A stretch of DNA of 54,202 bases from Eggerthellaceae bacterium (GTDB lineage Bacteria; Actinomycetota; Coriobacteriia; Coriobacteriales; Eggerthellaceae). Position 1 is the stretch's first letter. Each line of letters starts with the position of its first letter. Under the pieces are notes generated by a model that was not told the origin of the DNA, ran no database searches, and saw only the letters and a list, made by a program, of their open reading frames with translations. Where the stretch lies: positions 1 to 54,202 of the forward strand of contig JAFSHA010000095.1 of assembly GCA_017440565.1 (NCBI GenBank), read 5' to 3'. A program made the position numbers and the translations under genes. Of the stretch, positions 29,166 through 54,202 are shown one piece after another.

Positions 29166-30503
29166 GTGGAGCGGTACGAGGCTTACAAGGATTCGGGCGT
29201 CGAGTGGATTGGGGAGATACCCGAGGAGTGGAAGCTGAAACGATTGAGGCTTCTTGGTGCCACGCGCTCAGGTATGGGAAACAAGAAGCCGGATGATTTT
29301 GGGACAGGAAAGCCGTTCCTTAGCTACAAGGACGTCTATTCCAGAGAATCATTCTGCGATGCTACGGGATTGGTCGAAAGCACCGAAGACGATCGGAGCA
29401 AGTTTTCCGTTGAACGCGGAGACGCTTTCTTTACTGGTTCATCTGAGACCATAGAAGAGCTCGGATTCTCCTCCGTGTGCCTTTCGACGGTACCCGACGC
29501 AACATTCAATGGCTTCACAATTCGATTCAGGCCAATAGGAGAGGATATTTGGCCTGAGTATGCGGCGTATCTATTCAGGAGCGATGTGTTTCGAGGGTAT
29601 TTGCGCCAACGAGATAATTCAATCACCAGGGCTAATCTGTCGCAGCAAGTTCTTGGCGACGCGGTTGCCGTGCTTCCGCCGGTTTATGAACAGCAAGCCA
29701 TCGCTGACTACCTTGACGCCAAGACCGCAGAGATTGATGCGCTTGTCGCGGATTGCGAGCGGGAGGTCGAGCTACTGCAGGAGTACCGCAAGGTGGTCAT
29801 CTCCGAAGCCGTCACCAAGGGCCTCGACCCCGAAGCCCCCATGAAGGACTCCGGTATCGAGTGGATCGGCGAGATACCCGAGGAATGGGACACTATTCGA
29901 CTCGGCGAAATCTCCTATATCCGTGCCCGCTTAGGATGGCGTGCACTTAAAGCCGACGAGTATGTCGACGAAGGGTACCCGATGTACTCAGCATTCAATA
30001 TTGTTAATGAGAAATTCGTGACAGAACCCGTCAACTACATAACCGAATTCCGGTATATGGAATCACCCGAAATCATGATGGCTGTTGGTGACATCATGCT
30101 TGTTAAAGACGGAGCGGGTGTAGGAAAGTGCGCCGTTGTTCGTGAACTCGATGGTCCCTGCACTGTAAACGGATCAATAGCACTCATAACGCCAGAAGAA
30201 ACACAGGACAGTCGTTACCTGTATTACTTTTTTGAAAGTAACGCATTCCAGCATTTCTCTCGGATGCTTATGGGCGGAATGGGTGTTCCCCATCTATTCC
30301 AGCGAGATATCAAACTTATGCGCGTTATACAACCAGATCTGAATACGCAAACATTGATTGCTGACTACCTCGACGTCAAGACTGCCGAAATCGACGTGCT
30401 AATCGACGCCAAACAGCAGATGGCCGACAAGCTGTGGGAATACCGTCGCTCGCTCATATCCGAGGTCGTTACCGGCAAGTTCAAGGTTCCGGGGGTGAAT
30501 TAG
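29166..30503 (+). CDS. hsdS: Type I restriction-modification system, specificity subunit
   Basis: A 445-residue HsdS with two target recognition domains (TRDs; about residues 20-150 and 240-390), each followed by a helical spacer (YLDAKTAEIDALVADCEREV and YLDVKTAEIDVLIDAKQQMA). The two halves begin with nearly the same words, KDSGVEWIGEIPEEW and KDSGIEWIGEIPEEW, at about residues 8 and 228. TRD DNA is AT-richer than the flanks. The two domains recognise the two halves of an interrupted DNA site. The start is GTG 29166. It abuts hsdR directly. Confidence 0.93.
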   Translation: MERYEAYKDSGVEWIGEIPEEWKLKRLRLLGATRSGMGNKKPDDFGTGKPFLSYKDVYSRESFCDATGLVESTEDDRSKFSVERGDAFFTGSSETIEELGFSSVCLSTVPDATFNGFTIRFRPIGEDIWPEYAAYLFRSDVFRGYLRQRDNSITRANLSQQVLGDAVAVLPPVYEQQAIADYLDAKTAEIDALVADCEREVELLQEYRKVVISEAVTKGLDPEAPMKDSGIEWIGEIPEEWDTIRLGEISYIRARLGWRALKADEYVDEGYPMYSAFNIVNEKFVTEPVNYITEFRYMESPEIMMAVGDIMLVKDGAGVGKCAVVRELDGPCTVNGSIALITPEETQDSRYLYYFFESNAFQHFSRMLMGGMGVPHLFQRDIKLMRVIQPDLNTQTLIADYLDVKTAEIDVLIDAKQQMADKLWEYRRSLISEVVTGKFKVPGVN

Positions 30504-33500
30504 ATGATTGGCGAACCTATCGACTCCAGGCTCGTGAACGCGCTCGAAGACGGCGACGTCCTGATTGACGGGGACGAGTTCTACGAGTACAAAAAGCTCG
30601 GCAAGACGACGGAGCGCAACTTCGAGGATGATGTCGAGGCCATGCTCGGCGCCGCCGGGTGGAGGACGTTCGGCGGCAATGCTGAGGCGCAGGTCGACTA
30701 CGACCGCAAGCTCGCCCTCAAGGTTGACTCGCTTATAGGCTTCGTTCGGGAGACCCAGCCCGAGGAATGGGCGAAGATCGAGGGGCTGTACGGCGCGCAT
30801 GCTCGCGAGCGGTTCCTGAAGCGCCTGTGCGATGAGCTGGAGCCCCATGACGAGCGCGGCGGCGTGGTGAACGTGCTGCGCCACGGCATACGCATGGCGC
30901 CGGGAGCCCAGTTCCGCCTGTGCTACTTCCGCCCTGCGACGGAGAAGAACCCCGATGCGTTGGCACGCTACCGCGCCAACCGTTTCGAGGTGGTTCGGCA
31001 ACTGCGCTACGGCACACTGCCGGACGACATGAGCAACTCGGTCGACGTGGTGCTGTTCCTGAACGGCATCCCCGTGGCGACCATGGAGCTCAAGAACAAC
31101 CTCACGGGTCAGCGCACCGAGCACGCCGTGAAACAGTACAAGTACAACCGCAGCCCGAAGGAGCTGCTGTTCAAGGCGAACCGGCGCGCCGTCGTGCACT
31201 TCGCGCTCGACTCCGAGACCGTCGAGATGTGCACGTGGCTCGCGAACGAGAAGTCGTTCTTCCTGCCGTTCAACAAGGGCAACGGGAAGAACGGCGCGGG
31301 CAACCCGCTCAATCCGCGCGGCTACCGCACCGAGTATCTGTATCGCGAGATCCTAGCGCCCGACAGCCTGCTCGACATCATCCAGAGGTTCGTGCGCGTG
31401 GAGTGTGATTCCAGCACGCACTCGATGAAGAAGATAATCTTTCCGCGCTTCCACCAGCTCGATGCGGTGCGCAAGCTTGTGGCGGACGCGAAGGCGAACG
31501 GTGCTGGCAAGAGCTATCTCATCCAGCACTCGGCGGGCAGCGGCAAGTCGAACTCGATCGCGTGGCTGGCGCACCACCTGCAGTCGCTTCACGATGCCGA
31601 CGACAACCCCGTCTTCGACACCGTGATCATCCTGACCGACCGGCAAAACCTTGACGCGCAGCTCTCCGAGACCATCGACTCGGTGGAGCACAAGCGCGGG
31701 GTGGTGGTGCGCATTCGCGAGGAGGACGGAAGCGCTGGGCTTCGCGAAGCGCTGAACTCCGGAGCGCAGATAATCACCTCGACCATCCAGAAGTTCCCCT
31801 ACATCTGCTCCGAGACGAGGGTGAGCGGCCGGAAGTTCGCCGTCATCATTGACGAGGCGCACAGCTCGCAGAGCGGCAAGGCGAATGCCAAGATGAAGAT
31901 GGCGCTCATCGATCGCGACTTGGACCCGGACGAGCCGTGGGACGACGAGGACGAGCTCGCCAGGGAGATGAGGGCCCAGGGCACGATACCGAACATCAGC
32001 TTCTTCGCGTTCACCGCGACTCCCAAGGCTGCCACTCTTGAGGTCTTCGGCACGCGCGACGATCGGTGCAAACGGGATGAGAACGGCATGCGCATTCCGC
32101 GCCCCTTCCACCTGTACAGCATGAAGCAGGCCATCGACGAGGGCTTCATCCTGGACGTGCTGGAGAACTACACCTGCTTCGAGAGCTACTTCAAGCTGGT
32201 GAAGACCATCGCCGATGACCCGAAGTACAAGGAGATGAAGGCCAACCGCGCCCTCATGGGGATCGTCGACTGGAACCCTGCGATGATCGGGAGCAAGGCG
32301 CGAATCATCGTCGAGCACTTCATGAACGACGTGGAGGGTGTGCTTGGCGGCAAGTCCAAGGCCATGGTCGTCACTTGGAGCCGCCCGATGGCGTACCGCC
32401 TCTATCTGGCCATGACCGACTATATCAGGCAGCAGCGATACGCCTGCGAGGTGATGGTGGCGTTTTCCGGCAAGCTCGAAGTGGATGGCGAGGAGGTTAC
32501 CGAGGCGAAGGTCAACGGCGTGCCCGAAACGCGTACCGCCGAGCTCTTCGATACGGACGCAAAGCGCATCATCGTGTGCGCGAACAAGTTCCAGACGGGC
32601 TTCGACCAGCCCAAGCTCTGCGCGATGTACGTGGACAAGATGCTCACGGGCGTGGCCGCCGTGCAGACGCTCTCCCGCCTGAACCGCACGTGTTCCATCC
32701 CCGGCAAGCGCACCTTCGTGCTCGATTTCGCCAACACATGGGACACCATACGGGCGAGCTTCTCGGACTACTACGAGGCCACGCAACTCGACGCCGCGAC
32801 GGACCCCGACGTTATATACAACCTGCAGGAGCGCCTTGACGGCTACCGCGTCTACGACGCTACCGAGGTCGAGGCCGTTGCGTCCGCGTACTTTGACGAA
32901 CCCGACCCGAGTGCCGTGCTGCGCAAGATTGAGCCCAAGCTGCAGCCTGCTGTAGATAAGTGGTGTGCCCTCGACGACACGCCCAAGCGTGAGTTCAAGG
33001 CGCTGCTGCGCAAGTTCCTGCGTTCGTACTCGTTCATCACGCAGATGATCAGCCTGGGAGACGAGGACCTGCACCGCCTCTTCGTGTACGCGGGCTTCCT
33101 GGTAAAGAAGCTCTTCCTGCCCACGGGCAGCACGCCCGACCTGCGCGACAAGGTTGAGCTGGAGTACCTGCGCATAGAGGACAAGGGCACCCAGGCCATC
33201 AAGCTCGAAAGCACCGAGCTGCACAACGGCGGCGCCAACGCGGGCGTGGCTAAGGAGGAGGAAGAGGAGCGACTGAGCGTGCTCATCGACCACCTGAACG
33301 AGGCGTTCGGGGCCGAGTGGACCGAGGCCGACAAGATCATAAAGGCGTGCGCCGACAAGATCTGCGAAGACGAGGAGTTCGTGGCCAAGGCGCGCACCAA
33401 CAGTATGGGCGATCTTCGTGCCATCTTCGGTGACGTGATGATGCGGGCGCTCGCGGCCATCCTCTCCGACAGCCAGGACATGTACGAGAAGTTCAACGAG

Positions 33501-33581
33501 AACCCCGACGCCTACATAAGCATCATGAACAGCGACCTGCTGCCCATCGTGTACCGGCGCTGCAACTCGGAAGATCGATAA
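30504..33581 (+). CDS. hsdR: Type I restriction-modification system, restriction subunit
   Basis: A 1025-residue translocase-nuclease. The N-terminal nuclease has Asp181 in SVDVVLFLNG and Glu195-x-Lys197 in MELKN. The SF2 motor has Walker A GSGKS with Lys348, DEAH at 450-453, and motif III FTATPK. The C-terminal helical region contacts the HsdM2S core. Length and motif order are normal. ATG 30504 follows the hsdS stop with no gap. It ends the island; 33582-33707 shows no gene. Confidence 0.95.
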   Translation: MIGEPIDSRLVNALEDGDVLIDGDEFYEYKKLGKTTERNFEDDVEAMLGAAGWRTFGGNAEAQVDYDRKLALKVDSLIGFVRETQPEEWAKIEGLYGAHARERFLKRLCDELEPHDERGGVVNVLRHGIRMAPGAQFRLCYFRPATEKNPDALARYRANRFEVVRQLRYGTLPDDMSNSVDVVLFLNGIPVATMELKNNLTGQRTEHAVKQYKYNRSPKELLFKANRRAVVHFALDSETVEMCTWLANEKSFFLPFNKGNGKNGAGNPLNPRGYRTEYLYREILAPDSLLDIIQRFVRVECDSSTHSMKKIIFPRFHQLDAVRKLVADAKANGAGKSYLIQHSAGSGKSNSIAWLAHHLQSLHDADDNPVFDTVIILTDRQNLDAQLSETIDSVEHKRGVVVRIREEDGSAGLREALNSGAQIITSTIQKFPYICSETRVSGRKFAVIIDEAHSSQSGKANAKMKMALIDRDLDPDEPWDDEDELAREMRAQGTIPNISFFAFTATPKAATLEVFGTRDDRCKRDENGMRIPRPFHLYSMKQAIDEGFILDVLENYTCFESYFKLVKTIADDPKYKEMKANRALMGIVDWNPAMIGSKARIIVEHFMNDVEGVLGGKSKAMVVTWSRPMAYRLYLAMTDYIRQQRYACEVMVAFSGKLEVDGEEVTEAKVNGVPETRTAELFDTDAKRIIVCANKFQTGFDQPKLCAMYVDKMLTGVAAVQTLSRLNRTCSIPGKRTFVLDFANTWDTIRASFSDYYEATQLDAATDPDVIYNLQERLDGYRVYDATEVEAVASAYFDEPDPSAVLRKIEPKLQPAVDKWCALDDTPKREFKALLRKFLRSYSFITQMISLGDEDLHRLFVYAGFLVKKLFLPTGSTPDLRDKVELEYLRIEDKGTQAIKLESTELHNGGANAGVAKEEEEERLSVLIDHLNEAFGAEWTEADKIIKACADKICEDEEFVAKARTNSMGDLRAIFGDVMMRALAAILSDSQDMYEKFNENPDAYISIMNSDLLPIVYRRCNSEDR

Positions 33582-41726: not shown

Positions 41727-44621
41727 ATGGAGATTTCCAAGACGTCCACCGGTCTCAAGGACATCGTTTGTCCCGACACCGAGTCGACTGAGGTCGACAT
41801 CCACGCCGAGGGCGTCGAAGTAGTCAAATCGCTTTGCTACTTCTGCCACGCCAACTGCGGCGTTCTTGCCTACGTCAAAGATGGTGACGTAATCAAGATC
41901 GAGGGCGATCCCAACTATTCCAACCAGGGTGGTCTGTGCTGCCGCGGTACCAGCGCGCTTTTGCACGTGAACCATCCCGCCCGTGTGAACCACGCGCTCA
42001 AGCGCGTCGGCGAAAAGGGCGAGGGCAAGTGGGAGCAGATCCCGTACGACCAGGCAATTCAGGAAGTTGCCGACAAGCTCAACCAGATCAAGGCCGAAAG
42101 CGGCGCCGAGGCAGTGGCCTCCGCCGGCGGCACCACCCGCACCGACGACTTCGCACGTCGTCGCTTCCTCAACCAGTTCGGCACCCCGAACGGCTTCCAC
42201 AACGCGCTTCTGTGCTGGATCCCCACGTTCATGGCCGAGACCTGCGTTGCCGGTTGGTCCCCGTTCGAGACTGACCTGGGCGCTGCCAAGTGCCTCATCA
42301 TGTGGGGCTTCAACCCGGGTGCCTCCACGCTGCCCGGCAACCGCGGCTACCTCGATCTGCAGAAGGCTGGTCTGAAGGTCATCGTGGTTGACCCGCGTTA
42401 TTCCGAGTCCGCCTCCAAGGCCGACCTCTGGCTGCCGCTTCGCCCCGGTACCGACGCTGCTTTGGCCCTTGCCATGCTGCACACCATCATCTACGAGTTC
42501 ATGTATGACTTCGAGTTCGTCGATCAGTGGTGCGACGGCTTTGACGAGCTGCGCGACCATGTGGCCGAGTACACCCCCGAGTGGGCTTCCGAGATCACCT
42601 GGCTCGAGCCTGAGCTCATCCGCACCGCTGCCCGTATGTACGCCACCAACAAGCCCGGCTGCATCCAGTGGGGCTGCACGTGGGACCAGATCGGCCGTGC
42701 CTCCACGACCGGCTCCCATGCGCTCGCGCTCATCCGCGCGGTCTGCGGCAACCTTGACGTGCCCGGCGGCGACGGCATGCCCGGCCCGGCTATCAACTAC
42801 CTCACCGACGAGGAGCTCGAGCTCAACGAGCTGCTTCCCGAGGAGATGAAGGCCAAGCAGATCGGCTCCAACAAGTTCAAGCTCACTTCCTGGCCCGGCT
42901 ATCAGCTCATCTCCGACAACGCCAAGCGCACCTGGGGCAAGACCCTGCCCTCCGAGTGGTTCTGCGAGGCTCACGGCCCGAGCGTCTTCAAGGCCATCAT
43001 CACCGGCGATCCGTATCAGGTTCGTGCGCTCATCTGCAACGCCACCAACCCGATCAACTCCTACGGCGACGCGAAGATGACCATCGAGGCCCTGAAGAAG
43101 GTTGAGTTCCTGGTTGTCGTCGACTACTGGATGACCCCGACCGCCCTGTTCGCCGACTACATCTTCCCGGCTGCCGGCGCTCTCGAGCGTCCCATCATCG
43201 TGACGCATTACGGCGCCACCGACTCCGTCATGGGCGGCCGCCGCGCCATCCAGCCGAAGTACGATCGTCATGACGACTTCACCTTCTGGCGCAAGCTCGG
43301 CCTTGCCTGCGGTCAGGATCCGGCCAACTGGCAGTGGGAGACCATCGAGGACGCCTACTACGAGATCATCAAGCCCCTCGGCCTTCCCGTCACCTGCTGG
43401 GACGACTTCGTCGAGTACTTCCGCATGTACTATCCGCCGCTGCATCAGAACAAGTTCAAGCACGGTGGCTTCTGGACCCCGTCCCGCAAGGTCGAGTGCA
43501 ACTCCACCATCCTGCGCGAGCTGGGTTACGTGGGCATGCCCACCTACGTCGGCTGCTGCGAGAACGAGATCGACACCCCCGAGATCGCCGAAGAGTACCC
43601 GATCGTGCTCACCACGGGCGGCGGCTTCATGCCCTACCACCACTCCGAGCACTTCAACATGCCCGGCATCCGCTTCCTGTATCCGGATCCGTACTTCTCC
43701 ATCAACCCGGTGCTCGCCGAGAAGCTCGGCATCGCCTATGGCGATTGGTGCTGGCTTGAGACTCGTCGTGGCCGCATCAAGATGCGCGCCAACGTCGAGG
43801 CCGAGGTTCACCCGAACGTGGTCTTCGCGCCGCGCGGCTGGTGGTTCCCCGAGCGCGACGGCTCTGCCGACCTGGACAACCCGTTCGGCTGCCTGGAGTC
43901 CAACGTCAACGTGCTTACCTCCGTCGACGACTGGGATTGCGATCCCATGGGCGGCTCCTGGGCCAACCGTGGCCTCATGTGCAAGGTGTACAAGTGCACC
44001 GAGCTCGACCATGACTTCACCGCCAAGGACGCCGTCTGGTCCATCCCCGGCTCCAGCAACATCCCCGGCGTGACCGTCATGCCTTCCGACCAGCATCTCG
44101 ATCGCGAGAAGATCCCGTTCGAGAAGCCGCAGCCTGACTTTGAGGTTCCCGAGGGTTACTACTGGGTGTGGCAGGACAACAACCTGTACCAGAAGGGCAC
44201 CCACTTCCGTCTGGATGCCTCTGGCTGGCTCATCAACCCGCGTACCAAGGGTTACCATGACGCCTACACTGGCTGGCGCTACGACGGCAACGGCAACTGC
44301 CTGGTCGACGATGCCACCGGCAAGAAGTACACCATGGAGCGCGAGGAGATCGTCGAGATCTGCGGCGTGCGCTGCTACCCCGGCGCCGAGGCTGCCCCGT
44401 ACGAGTTCCCGGCCAACCTGACTTGGGACGTCGAGCTTGGTTACGCCCGCCTGGGTGACAAGCCCTACATCTACGACCCGAACAGCGGTTGGATGTTCGA
44501 TCCGGCCACCTGCGCCTACCATGACGCCAACTACGGCTACATGTACGATGGCTCTCAGGGCTGCCTGGTCGACCTCGAGTCGGGCAAGCGTTACAGCATG
44601 TCCTATGAGCCCATGGACTAA
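41727..44621 (+). CDS. Molybdopterin oxidoreductase catalytic subunit with duplicated C-terminal tail
   Basis: A 964-residue bis-MGD enzyme of the DMSO reductase family. The Fe-S cluster cysteines are C37, C40, C44 (CYFCHANC) and C71 or C72. C163 (LLCWIP) is in the position of the Mo-ligating cysteine in related enzymes. Central MWGFNPGAST, VVDPRYSESASKADLWLPLRPGTD and the C-terminal cofactor-binding domain are typical. There is no twin-arginine signal, so it should be cytoplasmic. After about residue 810 an extra aromatic-rich region occurs twice. It is followed by a ferredoxin-like and an NrfD subunit, giving a Psr/Dms-type ABC layout. The substrate is not known; the family in this group includes thiosulfate/polysulfide reductases, acetylene hydratase-like enzymes and catechol dehydroxylases. 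Confidence 0.9.
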   Translation: MEISKTSTGLKDIVCPDTESTEVDIHAEGVEVVKSLCYFCHANCGVLAYVKDGDVIKIEGDPNYSNQGGLCCRGTSALLHVNHPARVNHALKRVGEKGEGKWEQIPYDQAIQEVADKLNQIKAESGAEAVASAGGTTRTDDFARRRFLNQFGTPNGFHNALLCWIPTFMAETCVAGWSPFETDLGAAKCLIMWGFNPGASTLPGNRGYLDLQKAGLKVIVVDPRYSESASKADLWLPLRPGTDAALALAMLHTIIYEFMYDFEFVDQWCDGFDELRDHVAEYTPEWASEITWLEPELIRTAARMYATNKPGCIQWGCTWDQIGRASTTGSHALALIRAVCGNLDVPGGDGMPGPAINYLTDEELELNELLPEEMKAKQIGSNKFKLTSWPGYQLISDNAKRTWGKTLPSEWFCEAHGPSVFKAIITGDPYQVRALICNATNPINSYGDAKMTIEALKKVEFLVVVDYWMTPTALFADYIFPAAGALERPIIVTHYGATDSVMGGRRAIQPKYDRHDDFTFWRKLGLACGQDPANWQWETIEDAYYEIIKPLGLPVTCWDDFVEYFRMYYPPLHQNKFKHGGFWTPSRKVECNSTILRELGYVGMPTYVGCCENEIDTPEIAEEYPIVLTTGGGFMPYHHSEHFNMPGIRFLYPDPYFSINPVLAEKLGIAYGDWCWLETRRGRIKMRANVEAEVHPNVVFAPRGWWFPERDGSADLDNPFGCLESNVNVLTSVDDWDCDPMGGSWANRGLMCKVYKCTELDHDFTAKDAVWSIPGSSNIPGVTVMPSDQHLDREKIPFEKPQPDFEVPEGYYWVWQDNNLYQKGTHFRLDASGWLINPRTKGYHDAYTGWRYDGNGNCLVDDATGKKYTMEREEIVEICGVRCYPGAEAAPYEFPANLTWDVELGYARLGDKPYIYDPNSGWMFDPATCAYHDANYGYMYDGSQGCLVDLESGKRYSMSYEPMD

Positions 44622-44648: not shown

Positions 44649-45227
44649 ATGACTCGTTACGTAATGGTCATCGACCAGCGTCGTTGCATCGGTTGCCATT
44701 CCTGCACGGTTGCATGCCGTACGTGGAACAAGCTCCCGCTTGACATCGTCTACAACCCCGTTTTATCCGAGGGTGCCCAGGGCGAGTGGCCCAACGTCCA
44801 CAAGTACTGGACCCCGATGCTTTGCCAGCATTGCGCCAACCCCGAGTGCGTGCCCTGCTGCCCGACTGGCGCCAGCCAGCAGGATGCCGACGGCACCGTT
44901 TGGGTTGACCCCAAGAAGTGCATGTCCTGCAAGGTTTGCGTCAACGCCTGCCCCTATGGCATGCGCGACGCCTCTCACATCGAGAGCCGCCTGCATCGCT
45001 TCGTGCGCAAGTGCACCTTCTGCCGTGATGCCCGCGAGATGGATCCCTCCGCGCAGCCGTACTGCGTGAAGACCTGCCATCAGAAGGCTCGTATCTTCGG
45101 CGATCTCGACGATCCCAACAGTGAGGTCTCGAAGATCATCGGCTCCGTTCGCACCGAGCGCCTCTTCGAGGAGCTTGGCACCGAGCCTCAGATCTACTAC
45201 ATTCCGGATTTGGGAGGTAAGGCATAA
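44649..45227 (+). CDS. 4Fe-4S ferredoxin-like electron transfer subunit
   Basis: A 192-residue subunit of the DmsB/PsrB/NrfC type with four cysteine groups: CIGCHSCTVACRTWN, CQHCANPECVPCCPTGA, CMSCKVCVNACPYGM, and CTFC with CVKTCHQKARIFGD. It would pass electrons between the NrfD subunit and the Moco subunit. AGGAAAGGAAG precedes the ATG. Its stop overlaps the start of the NrfD gene by 1 bp (TAATG). Confidence 0.93.
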   Translation: MTRYVMVIDQRRCIGCHSCTVACRTWNKLPLDIVYNPVLSEGAQGEWPNVHKYWTPMLCQHCANPECVPCCPTGASQQDADGTVWVDPKKCMSCKVCVNACPYGMRDASHIESRLHRFVRKCTFCRDAREMDPSAQPYCVKTCHQKARIFGDLDDPNSEVSKIIGSVRTERLFEELGTEPQIYYIPDLGGKA

Positions 45228-46207
45228 TGAAGCATCATTATTGGGAACCGCCTATCGCCCTGTACCTGTTCTTGGGCGGTTTGGCTGGCGGCATTATGTT
45301 CCTGTCCGCCATCTTCGACAGCTTCGTGATCCCCGGTCACACCGACATCTTCGCGCTGCCTGTCCTCATCGCGTTTATCGCCATCTGCATCGGCTTGGTG
45401 TTCCTGCTGGTCGACCTTGGTCAGCCGGGCGTGTTCTGGCGCGTGTTCCGCACCGCTAAGTCCATCATCAAGTGGGGTGCCGTGTTCCTGGTCATCGACA
45501 CCATCGTCTCGATGCTGTTCATCGTTGCCTTCCTGGGCGACTCCCTGACCTTCATGGCTCCGCTGTCCAACCTGATCAAGCCCATCGCGAGCCCCATGCT
45601 GCTCGTGGGCGGCTTCTTCGGCCTGTGCATCATGATGTACACCGGCATCATGCTCTCCACCCTGAAGGCTCATGTCTTCTGGGCCACCCCGGCTCTGCCC
45701 GTGCTGTTCACCGTCTCCGCCATCTCCACCGGCTGCGCGGCCATCGTGCTGTCCATTGGTGGCTGGCCGGCCGTTGTGAGCCTTGAGAGCCTCGAGGCTG
45801 CCGCCGAGGTCAACCACATCCTGCACACCGTCGACATCGTGCTGGTCGTGGCCGAGATCATCATCCTGCTGACCATGGTGCTTTCCTTCCTGGGTGCTGG
45901 CAACATCACCGCCAAGAAGGCTGCCAAGCGCTGGGTCTGCGGCTCCTATGCTCCGCTGTTCTGGGGCGGCATGGTGTTCGCCGGCCTGCTCATCCCGCTG
46001 GCGCTCTACGTCGCCGGCTCCGGCGTGGCCTCTGCTGTGGTTGCCCCGGTGCTCGTGCTGTGCGGCGGCTGCCTGCTGCGCTTCCTGGTCGTCAACACCG
46101 ACGACCGTGCTCCGCTGCCTGGTGAGGAGCGTTACATGGGTCGCATCGCTACCCACAAGAACGCCTTCGTCAAGAGGTGGAACTACGACGGCGAGAACGA
46201 GTTCTAA
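45227..46207 (+). CDS. NrfD-family membrane subunit of the Moco complex
   Basis: A 326-residue protein with eight or more transmembrane helices, starting MKHHYWEPPIALYLFLGGLAGG, a typical NrfD opening. It contains the quinone-site type segment LVDLGQPGVFWRVFRTAKS. It should exchange electrons with menaquinone and hold the two soluble subunits at the cytoplasmic side. It ends the operon; a hairpin (46247-46277) follows. Confidence 0.92.
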   Translation: MKHHYWEPPIALYLFLGGLAGGIMFLSAIFDSFVIPGHTDIFALPVLIAFIAICIGLVFLLVDLGQPGVFWRVFRTAKSIIKWGAVFLVIDTIVSMLFIVAFLGDSLTFMAPLSNLIKPIASPMLLVGGFFGLCIMMYTGIMLSTLKAHVFWATPALPVLFTVSAISTGCAAIVLSIGGWPAVVSLESLEAAAEVNHILHTVDIVLVVAEIIILLTMVLSFLGAGNITAKKAAKRWVCGSYAPLFWGGMVFAGLLIPLALYVAGSGVASAVVAPVLVLCGGCLLRFLVVNTDDRAPLPGEERYMGRIATHKNAFVKRWNYDGENEF

Positions 46208-46282: not shown

Positions 46283-46480
46283 TATGTGCAAAATCGGCCT
46301 CGCGTGCGAGAGAATCTGCATCGCGACCTTGGGCGAGATGCCCGACATCGCGGTCGGGACGGGTTTCGGGCCCGGGAGGTGCCTATTCTGGTTCGTAACG
46401 CGTCCCGACTGCGGTGTTTGGGCGTCTCGCCTGGGGTCGCAACACGAAACTTCCCGCACGGGAGGCCTATTTTGCACGCA
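46283..46480. repeat. Long fold-back element B (about 198 bp)
   Basis: The ends 46283-46314 and 46451-46480 are imperfect inverted repeats beginning TATGTGCAAAATCGGCCTCG and, on the other strand, TGCGTGCAAAATAGGCCTCC. The inside continues as an inverted repeat: GCGACC.GGGCGAGA.GCCC and GTCGGGACG on the left match GCGACCCC..GGCGAGACGCCC and GTCGGGACG on the reverse strand of the right half. Only about 40 bp in the middle are unpaired. The end motif GTGCAAAA-(A/T)-n-(A/G)GCCTC is shared with element A. No gene is seen in 46208-46517. Confidence 0.8.
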
Positions 46481-46517
46481 ACGTTGGAAAAACTGCTATC
46501 GAAAGGCGGACGGTCCC

Positions 46518-47444
46518 ATGGATTACCGGTTTAAGGATGCGTTGACGGGCTCGACCATCGAGTGCGACTACCCCATGCTCGACGCGCGCGTGGTGAAGGG
46601 GGAGCGTGAGAGGTGCACGTCTCTCTTCTTCCCGGGATGCTCGCTTATCAACTATGCGCTTCCGCTCGTCTCGGCGGTGTATGACACGCTTGCGGGTCAT
46701 GGTCGCGTCGACGGCATCTCGTTTCTGTGCTGTGGAAAGATTCTCGCCTACGAGCCGGATGGCGGCGAGAGGCGCGCGAGCTTCGAGGCCGAGCTGGTGG
46801 AGCGTCTGCTGGAAACCGATGTCGAGCGCATCATCTGCGTGTGCCCGAACTGCGTGAAGGCGCTGCGCGAGGCCTTCGCCGCAGACGAGCGCATGGCTGA
46901 TCGCGCTATAGAAATCGTGTGCCTCCCCGCCGAGTTGGCGGAGCTGGGGTATCGCATCGATGCCAGCGTGGCAGCGGGGCTTGTGAAGGGCAATGCGGAA
47001 GAGCCCGTGAAGCTGTGCACGCACGACTCGTGCCCCGATCGCGACTTCGGCGAGTTCGCCGATGGCCTGCGTGGGCTTCTGCCCGAGGGCCTGTGGGTTG
47101 ACCCGGCGCATACGCGTTCCCGCTCGCTTTGCTGCGGTTCCCTTCCGCGTGCGGCGGGTAAGTTCGAGGCGGCTGACAAGCTGGCGCATCGAAACGGCGA
47201 GGAAGCGGTTGCGGTGGGTGCCGACGCCCTGGTGACCGCGTGCATTTCCTGCGCCTTCCAGCTTACGTTCTGCCAGCCTTACGTTCCGGCGCTCAACTAT
47301 TTGGAGCTTCTGTACAACTGGCGCATCGACTGGTCGCTTACGGGCGGGCTCATGAAGCTGAGGTTTTTGTTCGACGAAAACCTCGGGGCCGAAGAGGTCG
47401 AGTCGAGCGGACGCGCCTTTGTGGGACTCGAACCCGCCGAGTAG
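46518..47444 (+). CDS. CCG-domain Fe-S oxidoreductase (HdrB/GlpC-like)
   Basis: A 308-residue protein with two cysteine-rich CCG-type domains: SLFFPGCSLINYALPLVSAV with FLCCGKILAYE and CPNCVKAL in the first, and CTHDSCPDRDFGEF with SLCCGSLPRAAGKFEAAD and ACISCAFQLTF in the second. CCG domains bind unusual iron-sulfur clusters in heterodisulfide reductase, lactate and glycerol-3-phosphate oxidases. Start ATG 46518; upstream in-frame codons run through element B. It stands 75 bp before a Moco enzyme gene and is likely its redox partner. Confidence 0.85.
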   Translation: MDYRFKDALTGSTIECDYPMLDARVVKGERERCTSLFFPGCSLINYALPLVSAVYDTLAGHGRVDGISFLCCGKILAYEPDGGERRASFEAELVERLLETDVERIICVCPNCVKALREAFAADERMADRAIEIVCLPAELAELGYRIDASVAAGLVKGNAEEPVKLCTHDSCPDRDFGEFADGLRGLLPEGLWVDPAHTRSRSLCCGSLPRAAGKFEAADKLAHRNGEEAVAVGADALVTACISCAFQLTFCQPYVPALNYLELLYNWRIDWSLTGGLMKLRFLFDENLGAEEVESSGRAFVGLEPAE

Positions 47445-47519
47445 GGACGGGGGCGCAGCTGCTGTCTGCGCCTGCCAAGCGGCGCTTGCGTGCGCCCAGA
47501 GGAAGAGACGAGGGATATC

Positions 47520-49769
47520 TTGCAGGAGAAGAAGCCTACCAACTGCCATTACTGCGGGTACTGCTGTGCGTTTATCGCCACGGTTGAAGACGGGCGCGTC
47601 GTCGATCTGGAGCCAGATCCGACGCGTTACCCCTATGACCCGAAGATTCTCGCGGGCTGTCGTCGCTGGCGCATGAACCTTGACGCCCTCGACGGGGCCG
47701 ATCGCGTGAATTATCCCCTTAAGCGAGTGGGGGAGCGCGGAAGCGGTCAGTGGCAGCGCGTAAGCTGGGACGATGCGCTCGACGAGATCGCAAGCCGCCT
47801 TTCCGCCCTTGCCGAAGAGCATGGCCGTGGCGTGGTTGCCTCCATGATCGGCGGTCCGCATGCCTCCTTCTGGCCGCTGCACAGGTTCATGACGCTTTTC
47901 GGGTCGCCCAACAATATGGGCATCGGTCAGATATGCTGGAATCCGCGCATCTGGATGGATGTGCTCACGTTCGGCTGGACGGTCGAGATCGACATTTCGT
48001 CCGATACCGAGTGCCTGTTCGTATGGGGAACTAATCCCGCCGAGTCGGACAATTCGGCGTTTTGGCAGGCCATTCGATCCATGGGCGCTTCCCCTGTTCC
48101 CGTGGTGGTCATCGACCCGCGTTTCACGCGCACGGCGGGTGTGGCCGACCTGTGGATAGCGCCGAAGCCTGGCACCGACTGCACGCTTGCCCTCGGGTTC
48201 ATGAACGTGATCATCGAGGAGGGCTTGGTCGACCAGGCCTTCGTGGACGAATGGTGCCATGGCTTCGACGAGCTTGCCGAGCACGTGCGCGCCTATACGC
48301 CCGAACGTGTTTCCGAGGTGTGCGACGTGCCTGTCGAAAGCATCGTGCAGGCTGCGCGATGGTTTGGCTCGGCGAAGGCGGCGGCGCTTATATCGGGACG
48401 CGGAATTGACCAGGTGGGCGCCTCGGTTGCTCCGACGCATCGCGCCATCTGCTGCCTGCGGGCCATCACGGGAAACGTGGATAAGCCGGGAGCGTGCGTG
48501 ATCGCCGAGGGAAGCGACTTCGTCCCCGAGGTCGATCTGGAGCTTACCCTCGAGCATTTCGACGAGCTGGCGGCGCTCTGCCTCAACACGCCCTACACGC
48601 CCCTGCAATGCTATGACGGCTACCGCAAAGCGGCGGCGTTGACCGAGCGCTTGGGGCGCAGGCTTCCAGCGCGCTACCTCACGTCGGCGCACCCCGATCT
48701 GGCGCTGCGTGCCATGGAGACGGGCGAGCCGTACCCCATTCGGGCGCTTATCGTGCAGGCAACCAACCCGCTGCTCACCTATGCCGACACGCATCGCGTG
48801 TTCAAGGCGCTCATGGGCCTTGACCTTATCGTGGTTCTCGACTACTACCTCACCTCGACGGCCTCCATCGCCGATTTCGTGCTTCCTTCGGCTGGCGCCA
48901 TCGAGCGCCCGCTGTTCCAGGCTCATGGCGGCGTGGCTAACATCGCCTATGGTGGGCCGAAGGCCGTTGAGCCGTACTATGAGCGCAAGTGCGATTACGA
49001 CATCTTCCGCGAGCTGGGCCTGCGCCTTGGCCAGGCTGAGGAGTGGCCCGACGAGACCTTCGAGGACGCCATCGCCAGCACGCTTGCCCCATGCGGCATG
49101 GATTGGGAGACGTACTGCCTGCTGGGCCTGTGCCATCAGCCGTACGGGTACTACAAGCACCTGAAGCCGGGATCTGACGGCAAGCCGCAGGGCTTTGCCA
49201 CCTCGACGGGCAAGATCGAGCTGGCAAGCGAGACGCTCTTTGCGCTTGGCGGGCCGCGCCTGCCGAAGCAGGGCGAGCCGCGCAGGCTTTGCGGCCCCGA
49301 CTTTGTCGAGGAGGCTCGTCGCGCGGGTGCGGCGTACCTGCCGCTTATCACCGGCCCGCGCAAGCAGCCGTATAACGCTTCCATGTACTTCAACAACGAG
49401 TCGTTCCGCGAAAAAGTAAGCTACCCCGTGGTTGAGGTAAGCCCCGAAACGGCGGCTGATTTGGGTTTGCAGAAGGGCGATTACGTGGAAATTGCGACCG
49501 AAAAGGGCTCGGCTCGCTTCATTCTCGACACTGCAACTATGAGATATGGTCTAATATGTGCTGACTACGGATGGTGGCATCCCGAGTGGAAGCCCGGGGC
49601 GCCTCATTTCGGCGGCATGTGGGAGTCGAACGTGAACTGCCTGACCTCGTGCAGCATCGAGGAGGGCGAGCCGATGATCGGCACGTGGTCCTACAACGAC
49701 ATCGACTGCGTGATTCGCAAGGTCGACGGCCCGCTTTCGTGGCAGAAGGGTTTCTCGCCCGAACCGTAA
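47520..49769 (+). CDS. Molybdopterin oxidoreductase, second catalytic subunit
   Basis: A 749-residue DMSO reductase-family protein. CHYCGYCC (C9-C16) and LAGCRRW supply the Fe-S ligands; C139 (GQICWNP) is in the metal-ligand position; VWGTNPAESDNSAFW, VVIDPRFTRTAGVADLWIAPKPGTD and the terminal cofactor domain (GPRKQPYNASMYFNNE; MWESNVNCLTSC) are typical. There is no signal peptide and no NrfD or ferredoxin subunit beside it, so it is probably soluble and works with the preceding CCG protein. TTG 47520 has GAGGG 6 bp upstream; GTG 47490 would add 10 residues and has no ribosome binding site. Substrate not known. Confidence 0.88.
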   Translation: MQEKKPTNCHYCGYCCAFIATVEDGRVVDLEPDPTRYPYDPKILAGCRRWRMNLDALDGADRVNYPLKRVGERGSGQWQRVSWDDALDEIASRLSALAEEHGRGVVASMIGGPHASFWPLHRFMTLFGSPNNMGIGQICWNPRIWMDVLTFGWTVEIDISSDTECLFVWGTNPAESDNSAFWQAIRSMGASPVPVVVIDPRFTRTAGVADLWIAPKPGTDCTLALGFMNVIIEEGLVDQAFVDEWCHGFDELAEHVRAYTPERVSEVCDVPVESIVQAARWFGSAKAAALISGRGIDQVGASVAPTHRAICCLRAITGNVDKPGACVIAEGSDFVPEVDLELTLEHFDELAALCLNTPYTPLQCYDGYRKAAALTERLGRRLPARYLTSAHPDLALRAMETGEPYPIRALIVQATNPLLTYADTHRVFKALMGLDLIVVLDYYLTSTASIADFVLPSAGAIERPLFQAHGGVANIAYGGPKAVEPYYERKCDYDIFRELGLRLGQAEEWPDETFEDAIASTLAPCGMDWETYCLLGLCHQPYGYYKHLKPGSDGKPQGFATSTGKIELASETLFALGGPRLPKQGEPRRLCGPDFVEEARRAGAAYLPLITGPRKQPYNASMYFNNESFREKVSYPVVEVSPETAADLGLQKGDYVEIATEKGSARFILDTATMRYGLICADYGWWHPEWKPGAPHFGGMWESNVNCLTSCSIEEGEPMIGTWSYNDIDCVIRKVDGPLSWQKGFSPEP

Positions 49770-49840: not shown

Positions 49841-50704
49841 ATGGCAGAGAAGAAGCAGGCGTTGCTGGTGTTCAGCAAGCCGCCTATTCCGGGAATGGTG
49901 AAGACGCGCCTGACCACCGAGTTCGGCGGTTTTCTGACCCCCGAGCAGGCGGCGGAGTTTTTCAAGCGCAGTCTTTACGACGTGTGCGAGGCGTGCATGC
50001 ACGCGCTCTATGAGCTGAAGTGGGCCAATGAGGCGAAGGTGGCCGAAAACCCCGATGCCGATGTGATCACCTACGATTTCTTCGTTTCCACCACGCCGGC
50101 TTCGAACGTCGAGCTTATGAAGCAGACCTTCGACGCCATCGGCCCGTGGCCCATGGAGATCCACTACATCACCGATGCGGGCGCGACGTTCGACGATCAC
50201 TTCGACGATGCGTTCAAGCAGATCTTCGACATGGGCTACGAGCACATCGTGTCCGTGGGAGGCGACATTCCCACCATGCCGAAGTCTCATATCACGCAGG
50301 CGTTCCAGTGGCTTGACTACTTCCAGGCTCAGGGTACGCCCGGCTTCGTGCAGGCGCCTTGCCAGGAGTGCGGCACCTCCTTGGTCGGCTTCAGCTACAA
50401 CACGCCCATGAACCACCAGGGCGTGTACTACAACCTCGACGGCAAGCCGGCGCTTGACGCCTACGTCGAGAAGATCGACGCCGAGAACATTCCGTGCGCC
50501 TACTTCTCGCCCATTGCCGACATCGACGAGAAGACCGACCTCGCCCACGCCATCTCCTGCATGCGCGCTATCGAACGTGCGGCCAAGTACCAGCCCGAGC
50601 TGTTCGTTCCGCGTCGCGTGCTCGACTGGGTCGACTACATGGGTATCGTGGTGTCCACCCCGCCCAACGAGGAGCATGACCCGCGCCAATACATTGATGA
50701 GTAA
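49841..50704 (+). CDS. DUF2064/GT-A-like glycosyltransferase family protein
   Basis: A 287-residue protein with the start LLVFSKPPIPGMVKTRLTTE of the DUF2064/TIGR04282 family, a nucleotidyl/glycosyltransferase-like GT-A fold. The central SVGGDIPTMPKSHITQAFQ corresponds to the family's D-x-P metal/nucleotide loop, and GFVQAPCQECGTSLVGFSYN to the acceptor side. Family members have been linked to arsenosugar or other modified sugar synthesis. No partner gene of that kind is next to it; the context suggests co-function with the Moco/radical SAM genes, which is inference. AAGGGAGATG precedes the start. Confidence 0.7.
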   Translation: MAEKKQALLVFSKPPIPGMVKTRLTTEFGGFLTPEQAAEFFKRSLYDVCEACMHALYELKWANEAKVAENPDADVITYDFFVSTTPASNVELMKQTFDAIGPWPMEIHYITDAGATFDDHFDDAFKQIFDMGYEHIVSVGGDIPTMPKSHITQAFQWLDYFQAQGTPGFVQAPCQECGTSLVGFSYNTPMNHQGVYYNLDGKPALDAYVEKIDAENIPCAYFSPIADIDEKTDLAHAISCMRAIERAAKYQPELFVPRRVLDWVDYMGIVVSTPPNEEHDPRQYIDE

Positions 50705-50708
50705 TTGG

Positions 50709-50838
50709 TCCCGCCCGCCTGACGGCGGTCGGACCCCTCGACGCTGCGCGGGTCCGTGGCACCCACCCTTGCCGTTTTCTTGCTTTCCCTCGCGTACTTA
50801 GTACGCTCGGCCGCAAGACACGGCAATGGCGGGCACCA
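50709..50838. repeat. Large imperfect cruciform in the DUF2064-radical SAM gap
   Basis: TGGCACCCACCCTTGCCGTT (50757 on) pairs with the inverse of 50813-50838, and GCGTAC (50792-50797) with GTACGC (50801-50806) at the centre. A separate hairpin, GTCCCGCCCGCC with GGCGGTCGGAC, precedes it at 50709-50733. It could end transcription but has no T tract. Confidence 0.6.
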
Positions 50839-50870
50839 CAGCCCCGCTCGCTGACTTCCTTGGGCGATTC

Positions 50871-50902
50871 TGTGACTAATTCAACCTGTGATTAATTCAA
50901 CC
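50871..50902 (+). repeat. Tandem 16-bp direct repeat before the radical SAM gene
   Basis: TGTGACTAATTCAACC (50871-50886) is followed at once by TGTGATTAATTCAACC (50887-50902), differing in one base, and then by TGTGAGG, which carries the ribosome binding site. Paired sites of this kind suggest a regulator binding site, or replication slippage. Confidence 0.65.
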
Positions 50903-50917
50903 TGTGAGGTTTGATTG

Positions 50918-52246
50918 ATGGAAATTCGAGAACTGCATAAGACGGGGGCTTTGTGCCCGACGTGTTTGAAGGAGCTGCCGGCGCAGGTGTATGCCGATGG
51001 GGAGGGCGTGGTTTGGATGACCCGCACGTGCCCCGAGCACGGCCAGCTTGACACGCGCATGTGGCCCGACGCCGAGCATTACGAGTGGCTGCGTTCCGAG
51101 GCTTTCCCCAAAACGCGTCCGGTTAACACCACTCCTGTCGTGGGGCCGTGCCCGCATGGGTGTGGAACGTGCGGACGCCATGAGCGTCGAGGAACGCTGC
51201 TTGAGATCGAGGTTACGCGAAACTGCAACCTGCGATGCCCTGTGTGCTTCGCCAGCTCCACGGGCGGCGAGGACGACCCCACGCTGCAGGAGATCAGCGA
51301 CATGTACGACGTCATCGCCAACGCTGTCGGCACCGACGGCGCCGTCCAGATCACCGGCGGCGAGCCGACCTGTCGCAAGGACTTGCTCGATATCATCTAC
51401 ATGGGCAGGCAGAAGGGCTTCTGGGGCATCGAGATCAACACGAACGGTCTCGTTATCGCCGCTCGTGACGGGTATCTTGAGAGCCTGGTGGGTGCGGGCC
51501 TTACGGGCGTGTACCTTTCCTTCGACGGCTTGACGGGCGATGTCTACGAGGCTACGTGTGGACGCGACATCCTGGACATCAAGCTCAAGGTCATCGAGCG
51601 CTGCCGTGAGGTGGGCATCCAGTGCGTGCTCTCCGTCGCGGTTGTGTCGGGTGTTAATGATACGCAGTTGGGTGACTTGCTGCGTTTCGCGCTCGAGAAC
51701 TCTGACGTCGTGGCGGGTCTTGCCCTGCAGCCGGCATTCACGTCGGGCCGATTCGACGCGCATCGCGTGATCCCCATGTCTTCGGGAGATGTCATCTTCG
51801 CGTTGGCTGAGCAGTCCGATGGATTGCTCGAGGTGGGGGATATCTGGCCTCTGGGCTGCTCAAACCCCCTGTGCGATACGGGCGTGTTCTTGGTGAAGAG
51901 CGAAGATGCCGAGCATGCAAGCGGCTTCTACCCGGCTACGCGTCGCATGACCATGGAGGAGTACGCCGCCGGCTACAGCCCCGATAGCCCGCAGGGTTCG
52001 GTGTTCCTCGACATCCTGTACAAGAAGGGCATCGAGGTTAAGACGGGCCTTTCGGTCATCATCATGAACTACATGGACGCCTACAGCATGGACACGCAGC
52101 GTTTGCGCGAGTGCTCCATGATGGTGACGGTGCCCGATGGGCGCGCCATTCCGTTCTGCTCGTACCACCTGACGGATGCGTGTGGCAAACGCGTGTATCC
52201 GCCGTGGGGCAAGGAAGAGCTGCGCGGTGTTGGCGACAGGCATTAA
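50918..52246 (+). CDS. Radical SAM protein with N-terminal cysteine-rich domain (TrsS/Tes-like)
   Basis: A 442-residue radical SAM enzyme. The SAM-cluster motif C-x3-C-x2-C is C103, C107, C110 (NCNLRCPVCFA), with GGEPT and INTNGLV as usual. The N-terminus LCPTCLKELPA... TCPEHGQ and CPHGCGTCGRH is a cysteine-rich region found in the MJ0619/Tes/TrsS branch, and further cysteines near the C-terminus (GCSNPLCDTG, FCSYHLTDACG) may hold auxiliary clusters. TrsS members usually carry a CC or UC before the motif; here that position reads GTLLEIEV. GAGG precedes ATG 50918. It is followed 10 bp later by the ferredoxin-DUF169 gene. Substrate not known. Confidence 0.85.
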   Translation: MEIRELHKTGALCPTCLKELPAQVYADGEGVVWMTRTCPEHGQLDTRMWPDAEHYEWLRSEAFPKTRPVNTTPVVGPCPHGCGTCGRHERRGTLLEIEVTRNCNLRCPVCFASSTGGEDDPTLQEISDMYDVIANAVGTDGAVQITGGEPTCRKDLLDIIYMGRQKGFWGIEINTNGLVIAARDGYLESLVGAGLTGVYLSFDGLTGDVYEATCGRDILDIKLKVIERCREVGIQCVLSVAVVSGVNDTQLGDLLRFALENSDVVAGLALQPAFTSGRFDAHRVIPMSSGDVIFALAEQSDGLLEVGDIWPLGCSNPLCDTGVFLVKSEDAEHASGFYPATRRMTMEEYAAGYSPDSPQGSVFLDILYKKGIEVKTGLSVIIMNYMDAYSMDTQRLRECSMMVTVPDGRAIPFCSYHLTDACGKRVYPPWGKEELRGVGDRH

Positions 52247-52256
52247 GGAAACGAAT

Positions 52257-53231
52257 ATGGCTGACTATCAGGTTACGAACGATCCGAAGCGCTGCGTACA
52301 GTGCGAGCTGTGCGTGGCGTTCTGCCCGTGTGACGTACTCGAGCTCGACGAGAACGGCTATCCGTACGCCGCCAACATCGATGCATGCGTAGGTTGCACC
52401 ACCTGTTCGGGAAATTGCCCGAAGCGAGCGCTGCTGGTCGAGGCTATCGGCGATGCAACGTACGATCCTTTCGCCGACGAGCCGCGTGCCGAGCCCATTT
52501 CCAAGGAGAAGGGCAAGCAGTACGCCGAATGGCAGCGAATCATCATGGAGAAGCTGGGTCTGCGTTGGCAGCCAGTGGCGGTAAGCCTCATCGACAAGGA
52601 CGAGCTTCTGCCCGACGTGCCTATGCCCCCTGAGAACCTGCGCTTCTGTCAGGCAATGATGGCCGCACGTCGCGGGGCGAGCATCCTCATGCCGCCGTTC
52701 AAGCATTCCTGCCCTGATGGCACGTCCATTTTCGGTATGACGGGCGTGCCCGAGAAGCTGGCCACCGGCGAGATTTACGTCCTGTTCCACAAATTGGTGA
52801 ATGCGGAGGCGGCGGCGCGTATGGTTGCCGAGCGGCCGACGCTGCCTGAGAAGAGCCGCCGCGCTACGTATGTCGCCCCGCTTGCCGCAACGGTGCGTGA
52901 GCCGGAAGTGGTGGTGTTTACTGGCACTCCCGAGCAGATGATGTGGCTGTGCATGTCCATGAGCTACTACACGGGGCATCGCTTCGATTTCCATGCGAGC
53001 GGTTACAACTCCATGTGCGTCGAGGCCGTCCTGTATCCCATGATGGAGCAGGAACCTAATATCACCTTCGGCTGCTATGGGTGCCGCGCGGCAAGCGACA
53101 TCGGCGAGGACATGATGTTCATGGGAGTGCCTACCGATAAGCTGCCCATCGTGGTGCAGGGTTTGACGGAGCTGTCTGTGAAGGCCATTCCCGACTCCCG
53201 CATGAAGATTTACGTTCCGCCTATCATGTAG
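52257..53231 (+). CDS. Ferredoxin-DUF169 fusion protein
   Basis: A 324-residue protein. Residues 1-70 are a two-cluster ferredoxin (CVQCELCVAFCPCDVLEL and CVGCTTCSGNCPKRALLV). Residues 85-324 are a DUF169 domain (LRWQPVAVSLIDKD, GYNSMCVEAVLYPMMEQEPN, FGCYGCRAASDIGEDMMFMG). DUF169 proteins are of unknown function and often occur with Fe-S and anaerobic metabolism genes. ATG 52257 follows AAGGAAACGAAT. Its close spacing to the radical SAM gene suggests it delivers electrons for that enzyme. Confidence 0.88.
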   Translation: MADYQVTNDPKRCVQCELCVAFCPCDVLELDENGYPYAANIDACVGCTTCSGNCPKRALLVEAIGDATYDPFADEPRAEPISKEKGKQYAEWQRIIMEKLGLRWQPVAVSLIDKDELLPDVPMPPENLRFCQAMMAARRGASILMPPFKHSCPDGTSIFGMTGVPEKLATGEIYVLFHKLVNAEAAARMVAERPTLPEKSRRATYVAPLAATVREPEVVVFTGTPEQMMWLCMSMSYYTGHRFDFHASGYNSMCVEAVLYPMMEQEPNITFGCYGCRAASDIGEDMMFMGVPTDKLPIVVQGLTELSVKAIPDSRMKIYVPPIM

Positions 53232-53431: not shown

Positions 53432-54202
53432 TTACAGTGCGTGTTTTGTCGAACTCAAGGAGGCCTCTTCGACGATGCGCCAAGCGTGCGTGTAAACGTT
53501 GAAGCGATCGGCCTTTGCAAAGCCGATGACGGTCACCCCGCGTTCCTCGGCTAGGTCGAGCGACTGGTTGGTAGGCGCGCCACAGGCAATCACCGCAGCG
53601 CAGCCGATGGCGACGGCCTTCTCCATGATCTCGAGCGGCAGGCGGCCGGAAAACACCATCACAGCGTCGGAGGCGTCGATGCCGTTCAGAAAACACCAGC
53701 CCGCGAGCTTGTCCACCGCGTTGTGCCGTCCCATGTCGACGAAGTAGGCGAGCATCTTGCCGTCGCGAGCGAGCGCCGCCCCGTGAACGCCGCCCGTGCG
53801 GTGAAAGAGCTCGCTGGCGGCCTCGAGCTGCATGGACAGACGCGAAACCTCCGCAGGCTCCAGGAGGGCGGGTTCTGAAGGGGAGTGCTGGAGCGGGGAG
53901 GCGTTATCTTGCAAGGTGGGGAAGGCGCTCTTTTCCAGACGTTCCTCCGTGCGAACGTTGACCACCTGGCGCTTCTCGTCGATGTCCACTCCGATCACGG
54001 CGCTTCCCGCAAGCAGGCCCTCGCAGAAAAGCCTGCCAACCACCAGCTCCTCGACGCTCCAAGGAGAGCAGGTGATCTCGCAGTAATCACGTCCGTTCAG
54101 CTGGAGGGCGAGCCTCTCCTCGTCAACCACTTGGTCTACCTCGAGAGAGAGCCGACCCGAGCGGTACTTCGTCACGAGGCGCGGGGCGTGATCGTCGTCT
54201 GC
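53432..54202 (-). CDS. fdhD: FdhD-like formate dehydrogenase accessory protein, CxxC-less (5' end outside window)
   Basis: At least 256 residues; the frame stays open to the right edge, so the start is off the window. The first visible in-frame start, GTG 54175, is too near the conserved RLSLEVDQVVDEERLALQLN to be certain. FdhD moves sulfur from IscS to the molybdenum cofactor of formate dehydrogenase and related enzymes. Conserved blocks are LVVGRLFCEGLL, HRTGGVHGAALA, DMGRHNAVDKLAGW, FSGRLPLEIMEKAVAIG and GFAKADRFNVYT. The region between VNVRTEERLEKSAF and the RTGG block normally carries the CGxCG motif; here it is PTLQDNASPLQHSPSEPALL, with no cysteine. Confidence 0.85.
   Translation of the reverse strand, partial: ADDDHAPRLVTKYRSGRLSLEVDQVVDEERLALQLNGRDYCEITCSPWSVEELVVGRLFCEGLLAGSAVIGVDIDEKRQVVNVRTEERLEKSAFPTLQDNASPLQHSPSEPALLEPAEVSRLSMQLEAASELFHRTGGVHGAALARDGKMLAYFVDMGRHNAVDKLAGWCFLNGIDASDAVMVFSGRLPLEIMEKAVAIGCAAVIACGAPTNQSLDLAEERGVTVIGFAKADRFNVYTHAWRIVEEASLSSTKHAL

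Follow-up and report, generated by a model that had tools for sequence, protein, structure and literature searches.

The OCRE domain is small and rich in tyrosine, and is known from work on eukaryotic (human) splicing factors, in which it takes hold of proline-rich tails. In RBM5, a polyproline-II peptide is contacted by residues Y470, Y479, Y486, Y488 and Y495, and the N-terminal extension of the domain packs onto one of its faces (PMC5127646). Our literature search returned no paper combining OCRE with molybdopterin or a molybdoenzyme, and database auto-annotation may already tag the proteins discussed here as OCRE. As for the enzymes, the closest described systems are the acetylene hydratase of Pelobacter (PDB 2e7z) and the catechol dehydroxylases Dadh, Hcdh, Cadh and Dodh. 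The catechol dehydroxylases of Eggerthella and Gordonibacter are also most like acetylene hydratase (PMC7028382).

The stretch of DNA analysed here, 54,202 nucleotides from an Eggerthellaceae bacterium (hereafter, the window), encodes a molybdoenzyme whose C-terminal tail consists of two domains that are very probably of the OCRE type. A bacterial, tandem and copy-variable OCRE on a gut molybdoenzyme similar to acetylene hydratase would extend aromatic-ladder polyproline recognition to bacterial redox enzymes. In particular, the pair suggests that the same grip is used inside gut actinobacteria to dock or to fold a redox enzyme, and the tail offers a handle by which a new partner of this so far uncharacterised enzyme system of the gut could be traced.

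The enzyme and its gene cluster

Between positions 41727 and 53231 the window holds an eight-gene cluster that is conserved in Eggerthellaceae and is composed as follows.

41727..44621, forward strand: bis-MGD (Moco) catalytic subunit with a C-terminal pair of OCRE-type modules; 964 aa, no signal or TAT peptide
41817..43997, forward strand: Moco core of this subunit, residues 31-757; Fe4S4, molybdopterin and dinucleotide-binding domains (Pfam)
44649..45227, forward strand: Fe-S electron-transfer subunit of the four-cluster type, NrfC/TtrB-like (Pfam; conserved next gene)
45227..46207, forward strand: NrfD-type membrane subunit (Pfam; conserved order)
46284..47444, forward strand: CCG cysteine-rich protein, whose homologs begin near residue 80
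47490..49769, forward strand: second Moco subunit (MOCO2), without OCRE (Pfam; conserved order)
49841..53231, forward strand: the remaining conserved genes, namely a DUF2064/TIGR04282-like transferase, a TrsS/Tes-like radical SAM protein and a ferredoxin-DUF169 protein

Given where its homologs begin, the true start of the CCG gene probably lies downstream of 46284. The order Moco, Fe-S, NrfD, CCG and second Moco is retained at most loci, and the DUF2064, radical SAM and DUF169 genes come next downstream, both in Eggerthellaceae and in at least one further family. An fdhD gene lies at 53432-54175 on the strand opposite to the cluster, and genes for type I restriction specificity and R subunits are found upstream, at 29166-33581.

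In the core of the enzyme, PF04879, PF00384 and PF01568 each exceed their cut-offs, which is the domain set of the bis-MGD enzymes (DMSO reductase superfamily). The closest solved structure by sequence in the PDB is acetylene hydratase 2e7z, which aligns with residues 36-757 (E 5e-111), that is, with the Moco core from end to end, including a cysteine in the Mo-ligand region; the Mo ligand is predicted to be Cys163. That said, acetylene hydratase has neither the tail nor accessory subunits of this kind, and the Asp of its CxxCD motif is a His in ORF 41727-44621. Dadh, Hcdh, Cadh and Dodh belong to the same broad Ahy-like bis-MGD group and come from the same bacterial family as this ORF. Dadh, Hcdh and Cadh likewise come with partner genes for Fe-S and membrane proteins, but they carry TAT signals, which the ORF does not, and the OCRE tail and the second Moco gene belong to the present system. 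The tail-bearing enzyme appears to be related to acetylene hydratase and, by their common likeness to it, to the catechol dehydroxylases.

In the N-termini of 88 homologous frames, no TAT signal was found in the ORF or its orthologs; the one odd match, in L079, falls in an upstream extension of the frame. From these N-termini, the tail would most likely sit inside the cell. A cell-wall-binding role for the tail was rejected, since the enzyme and the Fe-S subunit both begin without export signals.

The repeated tail and its likeness to OCRE

The Moco core ends at residue 757, and the parts that follow it are these.

44082..44144, forward strand: conserved proline-rich linker, residues 786-806, PSDQ..RE.IPFEKPQP..E (conserved alignment columns)
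44136..44354, forward strand: OCRE-type module 1, residues 804-876, with the VPEG N-terminal extension motif at its start (AF2 strands)
44355..44396, forward strand: inter-module linker, residues 877-890
44397..44609, forward strand: OCRE-type module 2, residues 891-961 (Pfam OCRE match; RBM5/RBM10 OCRE match)

An initial annotation of this DNA had noticed a duplicated motif with tryptophans 834 and 922, had considered it foreign to enzymes of the DMSO reductase family, and had called its resemblance to OCRE superficial. The duplication was fully borne out. Namely, the two copies, at about residues 832-870 and 920-958, align without gaps over 39 residues (SGWLINPRTKGYHDAYTGWRYDGNGNCLVDDATGKKYTM and SGWMFDPATCAYHDANYGYMYDGSQGCLVDLESGKRYSM), W834 and W922 being exactly 88 residues apart, and their BLOSUM62 score of 123 lies 19 SD above the mean of shuffled sequences (26.6 +/- 5.1; 3000 shuffles, maximum 51). 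The aromatic residues of the tail follow an octamer spacing, with an excess at lags of 8 (p ~0.01) and 16 (p ~0.001) residues. What is more, the true repeat unit is longer than first described, starting with [FY]xVP(E) and continuing through approximately eight strands, to give residues 804-876 and 891-961, with the proline-rich linker 786-806 forming part of the same conserved tail, N-terminal to module 1. The tail is indeed no part of the core typical of the DMSO reductase family.

The Pfam OCRE family (PF17780; cut-off 24.7 bits) scores 52.9 bits on the tail and 45.5 bits on the whole protein, while nine composition-matched shuffled tails gave no Pfam matches at all. Scanned alone, module 2 scores 40.1 bits, over the cut-off, and module 1 scores 20.1 bits, under it; against the module HMM, module 1 reaches 98.9 bits. 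A match of module 1 to RHS_repeat was weak, likewise under its cut-off, and was discarded. In the reciprocal direction, a profile built from 33 bacterial tails matched three entries in the PDB, all of them OCRE domains of RBM5 or RBM10, with E values from 2.3e-4 to 1.2e-3.

Modelled on its own, the tail is predicted by AF2 to be folded (pLDDT 91), with strands at a pitch of 7-9 residues, about eight per module, behind an [FY]xVP lead-in. When 980 chains were re-aligned with VIA-align, the top two were the OCRE NMR structures 2mxw (Z 3.7 over 47 residues) and 5mf9 (Z 3.2 over 49 residues), and one other chain had Z of at least 2, namely 2.2. A Foldseek search of the tail model against the PDB gave nothing significant, low-probability Rhs/YD-repeat shells ranking first, and a search of a viral structure library with the tail gave no significant match either. 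With Z-scores this low, the modelled fold is supportive only of an OCRE assignment, and because Foldseek alone is non-significant as well, it is the sequence evidence that carries the assignment. The full-length AF2 model (mean pLDDT 58.9, poor in the core, from a shallow alignment) is too poor to show where the tail lies with respect to the active site.

Like the OCRE domains of RBM5 and RBM10 (PDB 5mf9 and 2mxw), the bacterial modules have YDPxSG turns and a VP[DE] lead-in, and are predicted to form antiparallel strands at octamer pitch. The differences are that those domains belong to splicing factors, whereas the bacterial ones occur as tandem copies on a cytoplasmic metalloenzyme, and that they have six strands as opposed to approximately eight in the models; in the bacterial octamers, aromatic triplets are mostly cut to one or two aromatics. 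Could the tail then be a convergent aromatic octamer repeat, with no kinship to OCRE and no ligand? The shortness of the repeat, its reduced triplets and the low structural scores would all fit such a reading, but a Pfam score far over the cut-off, the reciprocal profile match and the common VP[DE] lead-in speak against it, and we regard it as highly improbable. In other words, the likeness to OCRE stood up and the word superficial did not, given the Pfam score, the reciprocal matches, the empty shuffles and the identity of the best structural matches. Common descent of the bacterial modules with eukaryotic OCRE is nonetheless not proved, as a short octamer repeat could converge.

The aromatic ladder and its candidate ligands

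In the profile alignment with RBM5, Y470 corresponds to W834 and W922, Y479 to Y843 and Y931, Y486 to W850 and Y938, Y488 to Y852 and Y940, and Y495 to L859 and L947, so that an aromatic ladder would occupy the polyproline-contact positions, with Trp in place of Y470 and Leu in place of Y495. Across 33 sequences and both modules (264 cells), the first four of these positions are aromatic with two exceptions, and the fifth is an invariant Leu. On the other face, the equivalents of Y471, Y480 and Y487 are variable and mostly not Tyr, Trp or Phe, and this retention of the ladder on one face only is a further argument against convergence. Because the bacterial module has one extra hairpin, its register relative to RBM5 is uncertain by one hairpin, and the alignment could be shifted by two strands with the faces kept.

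The picture we propose is that of tandem bacterial OCRE domains fused to a molybdoenzyme that would be cytoplasmic, associated with the membrane and part of the acetylene hydratase/catechol dehydroxylase group. Every module would form a small antiparallel sheet of octamer hairpins behind its [FY]xVP(E) lead-in, with a W-Y-(W/Y)-Y ladder on one face, at the positions that hold the polyproline-II peptide in RBM5. This putative peptide-binding face would take up an extended, proline-containing peptide, and the bound peptide would dock the enzyme to a partner that is neither its own Fe-S nor its own NrfD subunit. The best explanation overall, which we would accept about as readily as we would doubt it, is that the OCRE tandem is a peptide-binding docking module; that its main role is docking in trans we hold a shade less firmly, somewhat short of an even chance.

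Which peptide would be bound? When the Fe-S, NrfD, CCG and second Moco subunits were searched, no proline-rich run turned out to be conserved; in the core subunits, the one proline-rich stretch found to be conserved is the tail's own linker. One candidate ligand is the IPFExPQP segment ahead of module 1, bound in cis or in trans; because the operon subunits have no such run, a protein from outside the operon is another candidate. Were the modules to bind linker 786-806 and the inter-module proline segments in cis, they would form a compact cap, lending the enzyme stability or covering an entrance, with no external partner. This reading ranks close behind docking in trans, even if we consider it rather unlikely. 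It would account for a proline-rich stretch confined to the tail and for the linker (IPFExPQP..EVPEG) being conserved and missing together with OCRE in both tail-less orthologs, and in RBM5, too, one face of the OCRE has the N-terminal extension packed against it (PMC5127646). However, later modules are preceded by the [FY]xVP motif only, with no proline-rich run, and the variable copy number and Ala-rich spacers described below fit multivalent docking better than a fixed cap.

Polyphenols can stack on aromatic platforms. One might therefore suppose that a small aromatic or polyphenol substrate is bound by the ladder and so enriched near the active site, especially as the core is close to acetylene hydratase and the catechol dehydroxylases (PMC7028382). 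That said, the accounts consulted of experimentally studied catechol dehydroxylases mention no such tail; of the alternatives weighed here we find this one the least probable.

Distribution of the tail and its possible partners

Within the order, OCRE is found in 57 of 299 genomes, mostly in frames that are 870-1260 residues long and match the Moco core; across the family as a whole, OCRE matches at E 0.01 occur in 60 of 138 genomes, and 54 exceed the cut-off, which in a sample of the phylum was passed only by family members. A scan of contigs from 84,980 species with two tail peptides gave confirmed relatives only in records named Coriobacteriia or Eggerthellaceae or in unclassified MAGs, and plasmid and phage collections contained no tail relative. 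Named carriers include Gordonibacter, Paraeggerthella, Raoultibacter, Adlercreutzia, Slackia, Ellagibacter and Aphodovivens, among others.

In a tree of the core, the ortholog group comprises 55 rows, 53 of which have the module, and a neighbouring group consists of four paralogs, 57-58% identical, without it. Within Eggerthellaceae and allied families, the tail is a marker of one ortholog group, a most likely cytoplasmic molybdoenzyme, in which it is constant, and the literature searched held no described Moco subfamily with such a tail. The two tail-less orthologs come from one genus (G085 and G137; L160 4323-6653 and L161 3019-5340); both proteins have also lost the proline-rich linker and terminate in a short stretch of charged residues. 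The idea that the tail tracks MOCO2 was rejected, as MOCO2 homologs are also present in both of these genomes; in-frame stops in two MOCO2 homologs were simply normal terminal stop codons.

The number of modules varies: among the 54 proteins counted, L064 included, 19 have one, 30 have two, three have three and two have four. An ortholog at L042 (1944-5327, forward strand) has at least four modules joined by Ala/Glu-rich spacers; two adjacent ones are almost the same in sequence, and the array would represent a recent expansion.

The initial annotation had suggested docking to the Fe-S or membrane subunit. Docking to a protein is plausible, and in nearly every genome the tail-bearing gene lies immediately upstream of both these genes, as would suit the Fe-S or NrfD subunit of the same complex as the target. 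We find that target improbable, because the tail-less relatives, namely the paralogs and the two orthologs, retain the same Fe-S and NrfD neighbours; neither subunit has a proline-rich motif specific to tail-bearing genomes; and the neighbour of the OCRE-bearing gene at L064 is a ferredoxin-like gene of 111 aa, while within 20 kb no match to an NrfD homolog was seen.

The gene at L064 (4976-7672, reverse strand), which has the ferredoxin-like gene downstream, encodes a further Moco enzyme that is divergent, sharing 32% identity with ORF 41727-44621, and has a single OCRE module. This module is most similar (60% identical) to module 2 of the main enzyme that the genome also encodes, and G643 and G644, further species of the genus, have similar matches in frames of approximately 900 residues. 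In one genus, then, a second molybdoenzyme has acquired one module, and the module is therefore portable. Docking in trans, our preferred reading, could then be taken a step further, although we think the step doubtful: in gut actinobacteria, an intracellular polyproline-reading module, of the kind found in a eukaryotic spliceosomal adaptor, may serve as a portable tag through which molybdoenzymes are brought to a common partner, and may be starting to spread among the Moco enzymes within a genome. Separately, a borderline OCRE match was seen in an unrelated frame of 2447 residues in an Eggerthellaceae genome (G621:C9:196430-196486).
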